This document shows positions 49,290-57,876 of a DNA stretch of 64,000 nt, piece after piece. Location of the stretch: assembly GCA_951394045.1 (NCBI GenBank), contig OX595991.1:310001-374000 (forward strand), written 5' to 3'. The position numbers were made by a program, and so were the translations under genes. The first letter of the stretch is position 1. Every line of letters begins with the position of its first letter. The notes beneath the pieces were generated by a model. It was not told where the DNA came from, made no database searches, and saw only the letters and a list, made by a program, of their open reading frames with translations. The DNA is from Nitzschia sp. DOCU1. Lineage: Eukaryota; Bacillariophyta; Bacillariophyceae; Bacillariales; Bacillariaceae.

Positions 49290-49759
49290 TGTTACGAAAG
49301 GTCACACGTGGTATTTTAAAGTGCGTGTTATTTTAGTGTTTTCGTTTCTCCGGTCTACCAAAGAGTGAGAGCTTAAGAGTCCTCGTATCGACCATCTGTC
49401 GTGAGTCGTGTCTCTGGGGACTATAGCGCTTATGCGCCATCAATCAGCATCTCATGTTCTCCCCATGTACACGTGATTTCTCTCCGTTCTTCACATTGTA
49501 GTTGTATCCGTTCTCTGTCCCGGACTGTTCTCCTTTATTCTCTTGTTCTCCTTTTGTTAGGATGCGCCTTCAAGAGGTCTTTATTATTGTGACACCTTAT
49601 TGACATCCGCCATCAATGTCAGTCATGTGCTTATATGTTTGTCTGCTGATGTCACGTCGTGTCAGTCCTTTAGTGTTCATCTGTCTGTTTGTGTAATCCG
49701 TGTATTCCCTGTATTCGTATGTATGAATCCTTGGAGTCGGATATCAACATACTTCAACA
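49290..49759 (-). repeat. 3' LTR (470 bp)
   Basis: Begins TGTTACG and ends TTCAACA on the plus strand. It matches 55525-55994 base for base as far as I can compare. Confidence 0.97.
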
Positions 49760-49810: not shown

Positions 49811-52800
49811 TTATGACTCAACTCGCCTGATGTATTTCTCTTTGTGATCATCGTAGATTTGCGAACTTACGTTCTTCGTGAACCAATCACTTAGATTCTC
49901 CGCAGTCTTCACGAAGATTATCTTGATAAATCCATCTTCAATGAATTCCGTTACGTATCTCGTTCGCAGGTCTAGATGCTTCGCTCGTGACGTCGTTGTC
50001 ACATTCTCCGCCATAAATATCGCTCCGATATTGTCAACGCGGCATATGATGGGCAATTTGACCTTTATTCCCATCGTTATCAGTAGTTGCACGATGAACT
50101 TGATTTCCTTTGCCGCTTCGGATAGTGCAACGATTTCGGCTTCGCTGCTACTTAAAGCGACGCTTCTTTGTGCCTTGGATTTCCAACTGATTGGCACGCC
50201 CAATAAGAATATCACGAATCCCGACACACTGATTCGCGTTTCTTTGTCTCCGGCCCAATCACTATCAGAGAATGCAACGATGTCCCATTCCTGATTTGTC
50301 CCGCTGAATTTCGGTTCAATTCTCAGTCCATAGTCTTCTGTATCCAATACAAACTTTATTGCCCTCTTCATTTCGTTAAATGCAGCGTGCGTCGGGCAAT
50401 CCAGAACTTTTGAAAGCTCTCGCACCACATTTGCGATGTCTGGTCTCGAATGTTTCACAAGATACAGCAACGTGCCAACTCCACTTCGATATTCTGTGTT
50501 CTTCTGGAGTAACGTTTGGCATCTTATCGTCTGGTCTCACTATCCCTTGTCCTGGAGTTCCCGGTGTCTTGTAGTGTGTCATCGTCCTGACGAGTTCTCC
50601 AAACTTAGCCTTCATTGATTTGATTAAATGAGGTTGACGCAACGTCGCTTTCGTTTTGTCTTCATTGAAGACAATGTTGCAACTCAAGTAGTCCGTCATA
50701 TCGTTCTCGATCTTTAGCGTAAAGCCTTGTTTTTTCAATCCTGCGATCGTACTGTCAATCGCTTTCTTCGTTCCGCAACAATAGCAGTCATCCACATAAA
50801 GCGCGATGAATATCATGCCATCGTCGTCGTTTCTCGTCAGTAGGCAAGGATCTGCGTATCCTTGTTTAAATCCAATTGCTTTCAGCTTCGCACTTAGCTT
50901 TTTAAAGAACTCTCTCGCAGATTGAATGAGTCCATAAATAGTCTGATTCAGCTTACAGCACAAAGCGTTTTCGTCTCTCACATGGGCGCCATTGTTCATC
51001 AATCCTTCGGGCGCGTCCATGTATATGTCTTCGGCTAAATCGCCATGTAGAAATGCCGTCTCGACATCGATGATCACGTTGTTCAGTTTGTAGATCATCG
51101 ACAACAGGATCATGATTCGGAATGTGATGTCGTTTACTACTGGAGCATAGCTCTCGGTAAAATCGACTCCTGGGATTTGGCTGTATCCGCAAGCTACCAA
51201 TCTGGCGCGAAACACGCCATTTCGTTTGACCTTAAATACCCATTTCGATTTAACGCAACGCCGATCTCGCGGAATTTGCGTACGCGGGATCAAAGTCCAC
51301 ACATTTCGATTTTCCATATCATTTAATTCCTTGTTGATAGCATCTCTCCATTTCTTTCTCTGCTTCGGGTCCTCATGGTCCCAAGCATCTTTAAATTTCG
51401 TAGGTTCATCGTACTCTACTTCTTCTTGCGCAAAGCAGTGGTCGATTAATAGATGCGCGGCATCCATCTCTGTCGCTGCTGCTTCGTTTTCAGTCGTCTC
51501 TTTTTCTTCTTCATTCGCACTTTCATTTTTAGACGACACTTGTGCGTTTTGAAAGTCCGTCGCATCATTTTCCCTTCCTAATCGATCAGCTGCTTTCGAC
51601 TCTTCGGATTCACCGGCGCCTGGATTGGGGTTGAAGAAAGTTTGGAGGCGTCGCAACTCGCGCTCCTGGCGTGTCATTCGGGCGGGCCGTTCCTGTTGAG
51701 TAGCTTGGTCGGGCTCCTCCCTTCCGGCTTCGGAGTCTGGGGGTTGCGATGCGTCCGTATCTCCATTCCCTTCCGGCTCCTCAGGTTCTGCTGACCTGAT
51801 AAGTTCATTTGTAATTCTCGTTTCCTCGGCGAGAGGAACAACTTCCTCATCGTCGTCATCGATAACCACAACTTTTGGTCTCGGATTCGTACCTTTGTAT
51901 TCCCCATACGTCTTGTTCAGCCATAGGATATCTCTGGACTGCAGCAGTCCATTAGTTTCCAAGTCGACAAGTCGATAGACATCGTCGGCGTGGTTTTTCG
52001 TGTATCCCACAAACATAGCTGTTCGACCCCGCTTATCCATTTTACTACGCATTTTCTTATCGTGGTAGTATGAAACGACCGCCATCTCTCCAAATGTTCT
52101 TAAGTGGCGGGCGTAAATAGGGTCTTTTTCGTATAGCTGCCGATGCGATGAGACTGGCTTGTTTTCCGATACAAGGATGTTCTCGGTATCCTGGTGATAA
52201 TTGGCACATTCAGTCCATGTGCCGATCCGAATCGGGTCATCCTTAAGTATCCCAGCATGATAGTATGATGCTCTGATACGGCCATAGAGTGTGGTGAACT
52301 TTCGCTCAACGCGTCCGTTCCTCTGTGGCGTACCAGCTCCTGTGTATTCAAAAATAGCGCCGGGGAACTCATCTCGGCACTTATCTTCGAAACTTTTGTT
52401 CTCACCGCTGTTATCGCACCGTATGTATTTGACTGTGTGCTCAGTCTTCGCCTTAATTTCCTTCAGCAGGCGTATCAAAACTCCTGCCGTCTCACTTTTC
52501 TGTTTAAGGAAGAACGACCATCCGTAGTCTGTGGCGTCGTCGAGCGCCATCAACCAGTATTTAGTTTGCGAGAAACTTTCGCCTTTCACGGACGAAATAT
52601 CGATGAATAGGCGCTCGCATGGTATCGCGCTTCTTTCACTCAACAATTTTGAAACTGCGCGTTGTTTCGCTTTAGCCTCGGCGCAGTATACGCATTGCGT
52701 CGGCTGTCCTGTCAGCTTCCAACCATAGAATTTAACTGTCTTTTTAATTATCTCTGTACCTACATGTCCGAGCTTAGTATGCGCTTCATCGTACCCAATG

Positions 52801-55397
52801 TTTGCGCCAAGCTCCATGGTAGGCATCGCTAGACTCTGGCCTACTGGGACCAGTTCAACCCCGCACACAAAGCTGTTCCCACTCTTGAACACCTTGTCGA
52901 ACGTGAGTCGAAAGTCGTCTTTTTCAATATATATGGAGGTCCCTTCGTTACCCAATTTGAAACCCCTTTTCAATGTAGCTGGTATAGAAATTAGATTGGC
53001 CACGAGTTCGGGCACAATCTTTACGTCCTTAAGTATGAATTCAACCGATTCTCCGTGTCGTCCCGTCATTCGAACCCGCTTATCGCCTACTCTCAGCGAT
53101 TTCATTATTACGCCTGATCGGCCCGTCTTTATTTCTGAGTAGGCGGAGCGCACGTTCTCTAAACCGTCGTCACTGTTTGAGAAGTGTGAGGTCGCTGCAG
53201 TATCTGCAAGCCACACATTTTGGCGAAACGACCTACTTTTCTCGAGATCGAGTAAAGCAACGTTGTCGGCTGCCTCGGAAATGTAGTCTTCGAGAGAACC
53301 AAGCGTATGGGCCGCCCATTTGAGCCCCGCTTGAATCATCGAGTTAATTTCGCGTTGAGAGAAGCCTCGTTCGCCATGTGCTCGCAACCGCGCGTTAAGG
53401 CCCGCGGTATCACACAAAAGGTCTTTCACATCATAAATGTCGATTTTCCGAATTGCGTTTTTCACATCGCTCACCCAGCGATGTTTGTTGCTGCTAATGA
53501 TGTGCTTGGAGGCTTCATAAAGAAGTCTCTCCATTGTCTCCTGCTCGGCCAGGTATCCCTTGATCGCGGTGAAACGCACGTGTTGCGCCATCTTCTTGTC
53601 TTGCTCAAGTTGTTTGTAAATTAACCAACTTTTATTCTTCTCGTCCCACCTTTTAATGGTGAACGATCCGTTCGGTTCCTTCGTCACGCGTAGCGAGTCG
53701 ATAAACATCTGCTCGGCCTCCGAATGGTCAGAACTACTCACAGTAGGAGTGTGGTAGTTAGCCGTAGTCATCCCCAATGGATGTTTGTCGCGTTTCGTGA
53801 TCGTCTTATCCATCTCAACGATGGTAATGGAATCGTCGTCGTTCGGGTAGACGACGATCTCCATGTTCGTGATCTTGGGATCGTCGACCTTCTTCTTCGA
53901 CTTGATCTTCTCATCGACCATGTCGACGATCCTTTTAACATCTTCCGTCTTGACAGACGAGACATCATCGAGGTCGATCGAAGTTCCTTCGACATCTTCA
54001 ATCTTAAATTTAAAACTATCTACACTCATCGGTTCAATGCTAGCGTAGGCATCGTCCCGTTCATCCATGAGTTCATCCTCTTCGTCTTGACCAAGTTTTG
54101 CACGCTTTGCGAATTCTTCAACCACACCCTCAACGATTTCGTGTTTCGTGGCGGCGATCTTACGATCGTCATCTTCGTTGAAAGTAGAAACTGAGTTGAA
54201 TAATCCTTCTTCATCAGAATCGTCCAAACCGTTGTTTATCAGACCGATCCCGTCGTGCATGCCTTGGGCATAGGCGCGTAGAAGTCGCCTATCGCCCTGT
54301 TCCCTCTCGTCGACTTGCTTGGTCGGCATCCTGGCTACCGAATTCTCCTCTCCATAGAGGATGAAGTCTTCAAAGCTCGCGTTAGCTTGGTCGTTTTCGA
54401 GCATCTGCAGAGCTCTTTCCGTTCCGTTGAAAGTCATCGTATTCTGTTCGTTCTTTCGTTTTGGGCAATTTGGTTTTATGTGACCGATTTGGTTACAGTA
54501 GAAGCACCTGACTTCCTTACCGTTTGCCCTCCCGTTCTCATGCGGTTTTTCGTTTTGCTTTTTCGAGCGGCAATCCGCTCCCTTGTGCCCGTGTTTCCCG
54601 CAGTGATAACACTTGCCCTTGAACATGGCACCTGCGAATTTCTTAGGGTTGTTCCTCGTTCCAGCGGTAAACAGAACCGTGTCCTGTTGACCATCATGGG
54701 GTCGTCGATTATCGGAATACTTACTTCCGCCATTGCGCTCGTATTTCAATTTCAGCTTTTCTTCGAGCTCGTCGATTTCCAGTGGGTCGTTCGGATCACC
54801 CACTCGGTCTTCGAGTGCTTCGATTACTGAGCTATATAACGGCGGCAGCGAGTTCAGAATCCTGTTAATTAAGCGAGTGTCCGATATTTGCTCAGCTCCA
54901 GATTCGTGTATTCGAATTCTGAGCTCTTCCATGTACGTTATATAATCCTCTGGATCTGTTCGCGGCGAACAGGTAGCCGAATAGAAAGACTCCTCCAATT
55001 TGGACTGCGTGGGAGCTGAGTGGCTCTCGAATTTTTGCTTCAGCCTCCTCCACGCGTCACTTGCATTTCCTGACTCGTATCCTGGTAGTTTACTCCGTTT
55101 CAAGTTCTTCAGCGCCAATCTGCCGGCGCGTGTACTTCCATCCATTGAGAGCGTTAAGTCATTAAAGACCTTTCTGTTCTTCTTTCGGAGCTCAATTCGC
55201 TCCTTCTCCGCTGGCACGTTCTCGTCCAGCACCTCTCGATCTAACGGGATCTCATCCCATGGTGTCTCGAGTGCCTCCAGCATATCTTTTGCCGCAGCTC
55301 GAGCTTCGTACTGTTGCTTCCATACTTGCCAGTCCTTCTTAAGCCCTGAAAACTTAAGGACTCTGATCGATTGTTCTTGCGTCACCGTTTCTGTCAT
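49811..55397 (-). pseudogene. copia gag-pol polyprotein with a single frameshift
   Basis: The main frame starts with the ATG at 55395-55397. It encodes gag, two CCHC knuckles (CYHCGKHGHKGADC near residue 262, then CFYCNQIGHIKPNC) and a protease with LADTAATSHF (Asp near 732). The GAG-pre-integrase zinc motif, integrase (RCDNSGEN and NGRVERKF carry the second Asp and the Glu) and RT with YVDD near residue 1534 follow. The reading shifts frame between about 50490 and 50507, at the RT/RNase H junction. The other frame then continues with EYRSGVGTLLYLVKHSRPDI and RNase H (FSDSDWAGD, SSSEAEIVALSEA) to a TAA at 49811. Copia elements normally use one frame here. One base gained or lost explains it; a sequencing error is possible because the LTRs are identical. 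Confidence 0.93.
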
Positions 55398-55512
55398 GGT
55401 CGTACTTCTTCCTGTAATTATAGCTTATCGTTAGCCTCACAAATCCGCTCTCTCTCTCTTATTTCTTACCGTTCGTCGGTACTTGAATCCTTATCCGTGT
55501 GCCTAAGTCTTG

Positions 55513-55524: not shown

Positions 55525-55994
55525 TGTTACGAAAGGTCACACGTGGTATTTTAAAGTGCGTGTTATTTTAGTGTTTTCGTTTCTCCGGTCTACCAAAGAG
55601 TGAGAGCTTAAGAGTCCTCGTATCGACCATCTGTCGTGAGTCGTGTCTCTGGGGACTATAGCGCTTATGCGCCATCAATCAGCATCTCATGTTCTCCCCA
55701 TGTACACGTGATTTCTCTCCGTTCTTCACATTGTAGTTGTATCCGTTCTCTGTCCCGGACTGTTCTCCTTTATTCTCTTGTTCTCCTTTTGTTAGGATGC
55801 GCCTTCAAGAGGTCTTTATTATTGTGACACCTTATTGACATCCGCCATCAATGTCAGTCATGTGCTTATATGTTTGTCTGCTGATGTCACGTCGTGTCAG
55901 TCCTTTAGTGTTCATCTGTCTGTTTGTGTAATCCGTGTATTCCCTGTATTCGTATGTATGAATCCTTGGAGTCGGATATCAACATACTTCAACA
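55525..55994 (-). repeat. 5' LTR (470 bp)
   Basis: Same boundaries and sequence as the 3' LTR. It holds the element's promoter, firing leftward, away from the neighbouring selenoprotein gene. The 63-codon ORF inside it occurs in both LTRs and is not a gene. Confidence 0.97.
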
Positions 55995-56043: not shown

Positions 56044-56513
56044 ATGGGAAATCATTGTAGCTATGGGAGAAGCATCCGCGGTGACAACACAAAGAATGAT
56101 AACGATAAGAAGATCATCATCGTCATTCGGTATTGTGGAGCGTGAGGTATGCTGGCATCTTGTCTTATTATGGGTCCTGTGTTCCTCGAGCCTTTTTTGC
56201 CTTCTCTCTAACGTATTGTTTTTCAGGCGCTGCCAATTTCTTTTACAATCTCAAATCCTTCTTGGAACATTCGTCGTCAATAGGACCGCATATCAAAGTC
56301 GTGGAACGACGAGATTGGAGGGCGACGCAACGATTCGATGTAATTATCAAGGAAACGAATCAAGTGGTGTATTCAAAACTTCAAGAAGGTCTAGGCTGGC
56401 CTCGGGGTCAGAGAAAAAAGCAAATGATTGTGGATCGTATCTATGAGGCGTGCAAGGACAAGATCGGTCCCCTACCGACCGACAATTCTGCGGAAGGATC
56501 CTCGCCTCGCTAA
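56044..56513 (+). CDS. SelW-like selenoprotein (Rdx family), UGA-encoded selenocysteine
   Basis: Exon 1 is 56044-56146 and exon 2 is 56227-56513, with an 80-bp intron (GTATGC...TTTTTCAG). The frame crosses an in-frame TGA at 56143-56145. Read as selenocysteine (U), it gives IIIVIRYCGAUGAANFFY, the beta strand and CxxU redox motif (Cys31, Sec34) of SelW/SelT/SelH proteins. Exon 2 continues with RFDVIIKETNQVVYSKLQEGLGW and a final helix (QMIVDRIYEA), as in SelW. Total 129 residues. The ATG at 56044 is the first after an in-frame stop at 56017. The Sec codon lies one base before the exon end, so the next codon is split by the intron. A candidate SECIS follows in the 3' UTR. Family members are thioredoxin-fold oxidoreductases. 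A plain gene finder would truncate or miss it. Confidence 0.88.
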
Positions 56514-56576
56514 AATGGGATTCTTTTTGGTCCTCTAAGAATCTCAAACGAGCACTATTGCTTTCAAAAGTTTAGA

Positions 56577-56641
56577 CCAGTGTCTGGAGTGACAGGGGCT
56601 CTACCTTTTTTCGGCGTGGCTCCTCGATACAAGACAACTGG
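56577..56641 (+). promoter_or_regulatory. candidate SECIS element in the selenoprotein 3' UTR
   Basis: Starts 64 bases after the stop codon. Helix I pairs CCAGTGTCT with AGACAACTGG (one bulge). The core has TGAC (56590-56593) opposite CGAT (56625-56628), giving the tandem G-A pairs. Helix II pairs AGGGGCT with GGCTCCT including G-U pairs. The apical loop has CC, not the common AA, about ten bases past the core, as in rarer SECIS variants. Found by hand folding only. Confidence 0.45.
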
Positions 56642-57876
56642 GAATCGGATTGGAAAGACGTTTGACTTAACAGAGATTCCGTGGATCCTGCAGGATTTCC
56701 AGACTGAAGGACGCTTTACTAGCATCTCGTTTGGCAAGATGCCCGAGGCCAACTGAAAATATGAGTACGATCACGCTTGTTGGTGTAAAGTTATGGCGTG
56801 GCTGCCAAGTTGCTAGAGTCGTGGGCTACCATGCATTTTAAATTTCCGGTGCCGACCGCCGAACTATGCCGCCTTGACATTCACAGAACTTTTGCGCCTT
56901 CCTTATCGCAGAGATGGATATGTGGCAAGTTCTCTTGCCGATAGTTTCCTTCAGGATGATACGCGTCATCGCTTCCGGATGCTCTCAGCGGAGGTAGTGC
57001 CATGTCCTTCCAACGAATTCGTGACCAAGTTCGATAGTAATAAAGAGCTGATCGGTCGTTAAACGGCTGACAAGTAATAACTGGGTAGGGCCATCCTTTT
57101 CATCTCATTTTCGAAAGGAGAGCCACCTATGGCTAGCTAGTATCCGCATCCCACAACCGCTGGGCTCGCCCTGGAATTTGTTCTTCTCTTCTGCGCGCAG
57201 GGAGAGCTGCTGGCCTCGTATGACTACAGTAGTGCAAGGGCAGGGCTCACTCTAGCATTTCTCCTGTGCGAACGAGAGCTATTGGCTTTGTATGTTTCTA
57301 ATGGTGGAAATGTATAGTAGATGATCTTCTCGCATCTCTCTCTAGGGTAGGTCGTCGCAGACGCAAAGTGGTCGAAGTAATCACATTTCGCCAAGAACTC
57401 GACGACAGCGCGGCACCATCAGAAAACTGAAAAATTCGATTTTGCCGGTTGTTCTGCAGTGTTTCGGCCGCTGGCTTGCGTCGCTTGTCGTAAAATTCGT
57501 ACCAAAGCCTACGTCCCTCGCTTTCATTTCAGAGATTAGCTTTCCTCAAAGTTTTCTCCATTTTTGATTGCTACGAATGTTTTTACTCTGGAGAAGTTCG
57601 AAAAAGGTAAGATGAGGTATCCTTTGTCCATCCGACATCAATTCTCGTATCGCATTCATTCTCCATGACGATATGTAACTTCATACTGCACGTCGAGTGA
57701 CTTTCGCTGAACGAACCATGGCTTCATCGCTTGTGGCGCCCCGATGCCGGAGAAAGAGAACGCCTCCGTTAGGCAAGCCATGGGGCATTGTGGTGCCTGC
57801 ACAAGTGGGGACTATTCCAGGATAACAATTATCTCACAAGCTTTGCAATTGTCAACGATGCCAGCAAGATAACAGC
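56642..57876. other. intergenic, no gene seen
   Basis: Chance ORFs only, the longest about 62 codons. The last 300 bases should contain the promoter of the gene at 57877; no element could be assigned. Confidence 0.4.

Follow-up and report, generated by a model that had tools for sequence, protein, structure and literature searches.

A two-exon gene for a probable SelW-like selenoprotein, with its UGA codon at an exon end, in a diatom genome

Does an in-frame TGA at the very end of a short exon encode selenocysteine (Sec) or terminate translation? The question is raised by a gene within the 64-kb stretch of diatom DNA analysed here (hereafter, the window). For diatoms, 20 to 44 selenoprotein genes have been reported, and the widely distributed algal selenoprotein families include SELENOW (PMC7539508); the list given for Thalassiosira pseudonana (PMC2375036) has no SelW. 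We suggest, with a probability of about 0.9 and judging from sequence, that the window gene encodes, in two exons, a divergent Rdx-family selenoprotein that is SelW-like. The SelW family itself is already known; ordinary gene callers would overlook a gene of this build, as they are hit twice by a UGA at an exon end, where stop and intron coincide.

Gene layout and family of the joined protein

Exon 1 (56044..56146, plus strand) runs from ATG to TGA-G, that is, 34 codons and one base, and its start at 56044 is the first ATG downstream of an upstream in-frame stop. The exon would encode the first strand of the protein and a CGAU motif, TGT GGA GCG TGA (56134..56145, plus strand), with the proposed Sec codon at 56143-56145. 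Its 3' end reads ...TAT TGT GGA GCG TGA G, and the 5' end of exon 2 (56227..56513, plus strand; stop codon TAA at 56511-56513) reads GC GCT GCC. Between them lies a phase 1 intron of 80 nt (56147..56226, plus strand; GTATGC...TTTTTCAG). Joining the exons yields 390 nt in frame, interrupted by a single internal stop, the TGA at 56143-56145, and a protein of 129 residues including the TGA: MGNHC...KKIIIVIRYCGA-U-GAANFFYNLK...VVYSKLQEGLGWPRG...SSPR. The preliminary description had proposed two exons joined across a canonical 80-bp intron, a TGA at the Sec position of a CxxU motif at the exon end and a post-Sec codon split by the intron; on re-reading the sequence we found its coordinates right, the frame kept across the join, the CxxU with in-frame TGA that is asked of a selenoprotein W in place, and the codon divided as G|GC. 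The pattern TG[TC]N6TGAGGT occurs a single time over both strands of the 64-kb window, at the end of exon 1.

With C typed in place of U, the joined protein matches Pfam Rdx (PF10262) over residues 26-102 (26.8 bits versus a cut-off of 22.6). No family match was returned by the Pfam search for exon 2 alone; since the Rdx match appears only with the exons joined, it is the join that makes the family. A comparison with SelW, SelT and SelH, which the preliminary description had recommended, came out in part: the Rdx cut-off is exceeded, but the score for NCBIfam TIGR02174 (SelT/SelW/SelH) is 24.2 bits, below the curated cut-off of 34.2. The protein is therefore filed here as Rdx, SelW-like, and not as canonical SelW. 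Like selenoprotein W (SELENOW), it appears to be a small single-domain Rdx protein in which CxxU closes the first strand, Sec is followed by Gly and an (L/V)xSK stretch comes later on. Unlike selenoprotein W, it has a tail after the domain and an N-terminal extension. The intron placement differs from that of vertebrate SelW as well: the window gene has its intron directly after the Sec codon, whereas exon 1 of vertebrate SelW is reported to end shortly before the CxxU motif (PMC3316567).

We propose that splicing would leave the UGA one base before the exon junction, where it would be read as selenocysteine by tRNA-Sec, whose genes the genome has. A SECIS in the 3' UTR, most likely the hairpin at 56577-56641 discussed below, would aid the insertion. 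From the family, the CGAU that closes the first strand is expected to be a thiol/selenol redox centre, like its counterpart in SelW, and the predicted product is most likely a small selenol/thiol redox protein.

A paralogue, relatives and selenocysteine machinery

With the joined protein as query, a search of the genome (52,080,636 bases in 63 contigs) returned three places: one for each exon of the gene itself, and a third at C11:1468764-1469018 (minus strand, E 5.3e-4). The latter is a second SelW-like gene, L003. On its own strand it reads ATG...GTT CAA TTC TGT GGT GGA TGA G|GTACGT, then an intron of 194 nt, then |GC TAC GGG CGG CAG..., and its predicted protein is MSEKVKVHVQFCGG-U-GYGRQFMLL...EEYLEDL. 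The two genes share the Rdx domain, the TGA-G|GT exon end, the position of the motif, and the site and phase of the intron; they differ in intron length (194 versus 80 nt), and their proteins are only about 32% identical. L003 passes both family cut-offs (Rdx, 37.8; TIGR02174, 47.8 versus 34.2). That a pair of proteins so little alike should both have TGA at CxxU and an adjoining intron would be hard to explain by chance, and we regard L003 as the strongest support for reading the window gene as a selenoprotein gene.

As a single query, the window protein had no match among solved structures with an E value of 10 or below. A three-row profile built from the window protein, L003 and the related protein P0001 ranks selenoprotein W first among solved structures (E 4.9e-4). 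This match leans on the paralogue, which on its own has selenoprotein W (2npb) as its best solved structure at E 2.2e-5. The 2npb chain has a G-A-C-G-Y context at the motif.

Among proteins from other sources, the window protein alone as query retrieved P0001 only, from 4 candidates; this protein retains exon 2, with 67% identity across 63% of the joined query. With the three-row profile, 221 candidates included 21 proteins with E no higher than 0.01. By eye, nine of the 21 (P0001, P0004, P0008, P0011, P0012, P0014, P0015, P0017 and P0021) have an unrelated, frequently hydrophobic stretch that extends as far as the residue preceding the post-Sec Gly, and in P0001 this stretch reaches exactly to the intron site of the window gene. 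Such a boundary in nine relatives is expected if the intron is conserved. The residues before Gly in the nine are S, T, A, S, I, L, T, L and Q; each can be encoded with A as the third codon base, which an AG|G acceptor in this phase requires, and all except Q (8/9) are compatible with YAG. P0020 diverges further along, and ten relatives start further downstream. A single protein, P0002, reads through the Sec site (CGGWGYGRQF), the other 20 of the 21 starting after it or in unrelated sequence. Its W, seen in the protein sequence, is what translation of a TGA under code 4 would give. Cys at the Sec site was found in none of the 21 relatives, P0002 being the one that covers the site. No further protein came from L003 as query (20 matches of 21 candidates), and no relatives were found in viral contigs, prokaryote contigs or phage records. 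P0012 is labelled Bacillariaceae sp. by its source; this label, and the look of the gene set in the window, point to a diatom as the origin of the DNA.

The genome decodes Sec, as judged by the presence of tRNA-Sec, SepSecS and SelD. Of 13 genome matches to tRNA-Sec, five exceed the cut-off (loci L004 and L007; C5:639526-640069 and C6:887673-887758); four of these stand in tandem on contig C5, and four of the five are identical in sequence. ARAGORN, run on three loci, called all five tRNA-SeC with anticodon TCA. SepSecS was found, and SelD has two matches, one of them with TGA. The SelB search gave 27 matches, none over the cut-off, and did not single out eEFSec. TGA lies inside three of four GPx matches, one of two Sep15_SelM matches and one of four Rdx matches. 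This last one, the SelT-like gene L014, shares with the window gene the Rdx match and a TGA at the Sec site; it differs in being longer, with a hydrophobic insert, and its SelT name is a by-eye reading. Together with the Rdx match and the paralogue of the same layout, this machinery supports the SelW-like reading put forward in the preliminary description.

Several side observations were made in the same searches. A two-Rdx-domain protein (L012, L013 and L015; C10:1162533-1163256, minus strand) has CTGC (Cys) at both motifs. Of nine PF13911 matches, two contain TGA plus TAA and were left out of the selenoprotein count. L027 and L029 are near-copies of each other; both are AhpC-TSA_2 genes whose match contains one TGA and one TAA.

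If the TGA were a true stop, exon 1 would give a short peptide, or an alternative splice skipping the TGA would give a protein without CxxU. When 36 in-frame GT/GC...AG joins were tried, with GC donors allowed, internal stops were indeed lacking in at least 14. However, all of the best 14 joins of the 36 lose the strand and motif common to Rdx proteins, the Rdx match needs the 56146/56227 join, and the paralogue retains the same TGA-G|GT; we consider a true stop highly improbable. Less far-fetched, but still improbable, is a protein nearer to MIEN1/Rdx12 or SelT than to SelW, as all of these have the Rdx fold and the window protein scores modestly against the Rdx profile. Against this, C17orf37/MIEN1 reaches only E 0.41 in the profile search in which SelW ranks first, and the window protein carries YCGAUG, which we take to be the SelW motif. 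The SelW-like selenoprotein remains our preferred reading of the gene.

SECIS candidates and an upstream LTR element

The candidate SECIS hairpin (56577..56641, plus strand) begins 64 nt past the stop codon. Its helix I pairs CCAGTGTCT with AGAC-A-ACTGG, the core is formed by GTGA (56589-56592) and CGAT (56625-56628), and helix II (AGGGGCT/GGCTCCT) has 7 bp including two G-U pairs. A CC dinucleotide follows at 56604-56605, 11 nt after GTGA. In its GA/GA core and in CC replacing AA, the candidate resembles the CC-loop SECIS elements of mammalian SelM and SelO; among vertebrates, the substitution is described for these two genes of mammals only (PMC3316567). The window candidate would differ in being an independent case and in having G before the core, a feature reported for Ostreococcus (PMC2375036).

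The stability of the hairpin is no greater than expected from its composition (minimum energy –23.4 versus a dinucleotide-shuffle mean of –23.88; z 0.14; 102/200 shuffles at least as stable), and its unconstrained minimum-energy fold pairs the CC with GG. Rfam SECIS_1 found no match in the window region, the whole genome, or eight loci including control selenoprotein genes; since the model misses the controls too, it is uninformative as a test here. A first SECIS descriptor missed 56577-56641 and reported 57697 instead. With a loose descriptor, in which the dinucleotide is held unpaired, the core at 56589 scores –20.3, which places it about joint tenth among the 74 hits from both strands of the 64 kb (10/74 at this score or better, about 0.08 per kb of strand). 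The loose descriptor also hits the 3' regions of the window, SelW2, SelT, GPxC and SelM loci, finds no hit in those of GPxA and GPxB, and has one hit in the whole SPS2 locus, upstream of the Sec codon.

A strict descriptor allows one mismatch, followed by at least 7 contiguous pairs with AA/CC close behind; it was written after the structure had been seen, so its statistics are post hoc. The sole hit in 2 x 64 kb is 56577-56641. Shuffling the 500 nt after the stop produced at least one hit in 6/2000 trials, and in 0/2000 with helix I at –12 or better. Another 18 loci (118,986 nt) gave two hits, and one of seven other selenoprotein loci (GPxC) passes. Thus, the hand-folded SECIS of the preliminary description holds as to its position, core, CC and rare geometry, while its stability is like that of shuffled sequence and Rfam does not match it. 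We consider 56577-56641 a plausible SECIS and the best candidate, short of proof. On the 3' side of L003, SECIS candidates were seen at +130 (AA, uneven core) and at +76 (good core, without AA/CC), none of them clear.

A copia-like element stands immediately upstream of the gene. Its right LTR (55525..55994) ends 49 nt before the ATG and is identical to the left one (49290-49759) in 470/470 bases; AGGTTG flanks both LTRs on their outer sides. A long frame between the LTRs (50376-55424, minus strand) was recognised by eye as a copia-like gag-pol. On a plain reading, an LTR element has recently inserted into the leader or promoter of the gene. An element so young and so close to the ATG makes expression uncertain, and the gene may be silent or LTR-driven.

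Two further alternatives leave the identity of the gene largely as it is. The gene could encode a selenoprotein served by another SECIS, such as the AA-type hairpin (ATGA, AA) at 57220..57273 (plus strand), which outscores the 56589 core in the loose descriptor (–25.2 versus –20.3). That hairpin, however, fails the strict geometry and lies about 700 nt past the stop, within a locally duplicated stretch (window positions about 57140-57310) in which the SECIS-like hairpin at 57220 is inverted, and we find such a substitution unlikely. Slightly easier to entertain, though still on the unlikely side, is a SelW-like gene recently switched off, in which the LTR element has severed the promoter, the intact frame is a leftover and this copy yields no Sec protein. 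Identical LTRs with matching flanks, the 49-nt distance and a gag-pol frame extending on the minus strand to 55424 would all suit a fresh disruption of this kind. On the other hand, the frame, splice sites and TGA context of the window gene are intact, and LTRs can bring promoter activity of their own; moreover, a switched-off copy concerns present expression and not gene identity. The reading of the locus as a SelW-like selenoprotein gene, with 56577-56641 as its candidate SECIS, is the one we carry forward.

Intron placement next to the proposed Sec codon

A stop located at least 50-55 nt upstream of an exon junction is held to expose the message to decay, and human SEPW1 mRNA is described as among the most selenium-sensitive (PMC4911915). 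In the window gene the UGA would lie so near the junction that it falls outside the 50-55 nt rule, and hence, if the rule extends to diatoms, failed Sec insertion at low selenium would spare the message. The same placing of the UGA in both paralogues suggests that it is old. It is tempting, but doubtful at present, to suppose that SelW genes of this lineage keep an intron one base after the Sec codon as an mRNA shield, and that the window gene combines it with a non-mammalian SECIS of the CC type. With two such genes in the same genome, it can be tested cleanly whether descent or selection has kept the intron site in place. In one of the pair, the window gene, an LTR element has freshly inserted at the 5' end.
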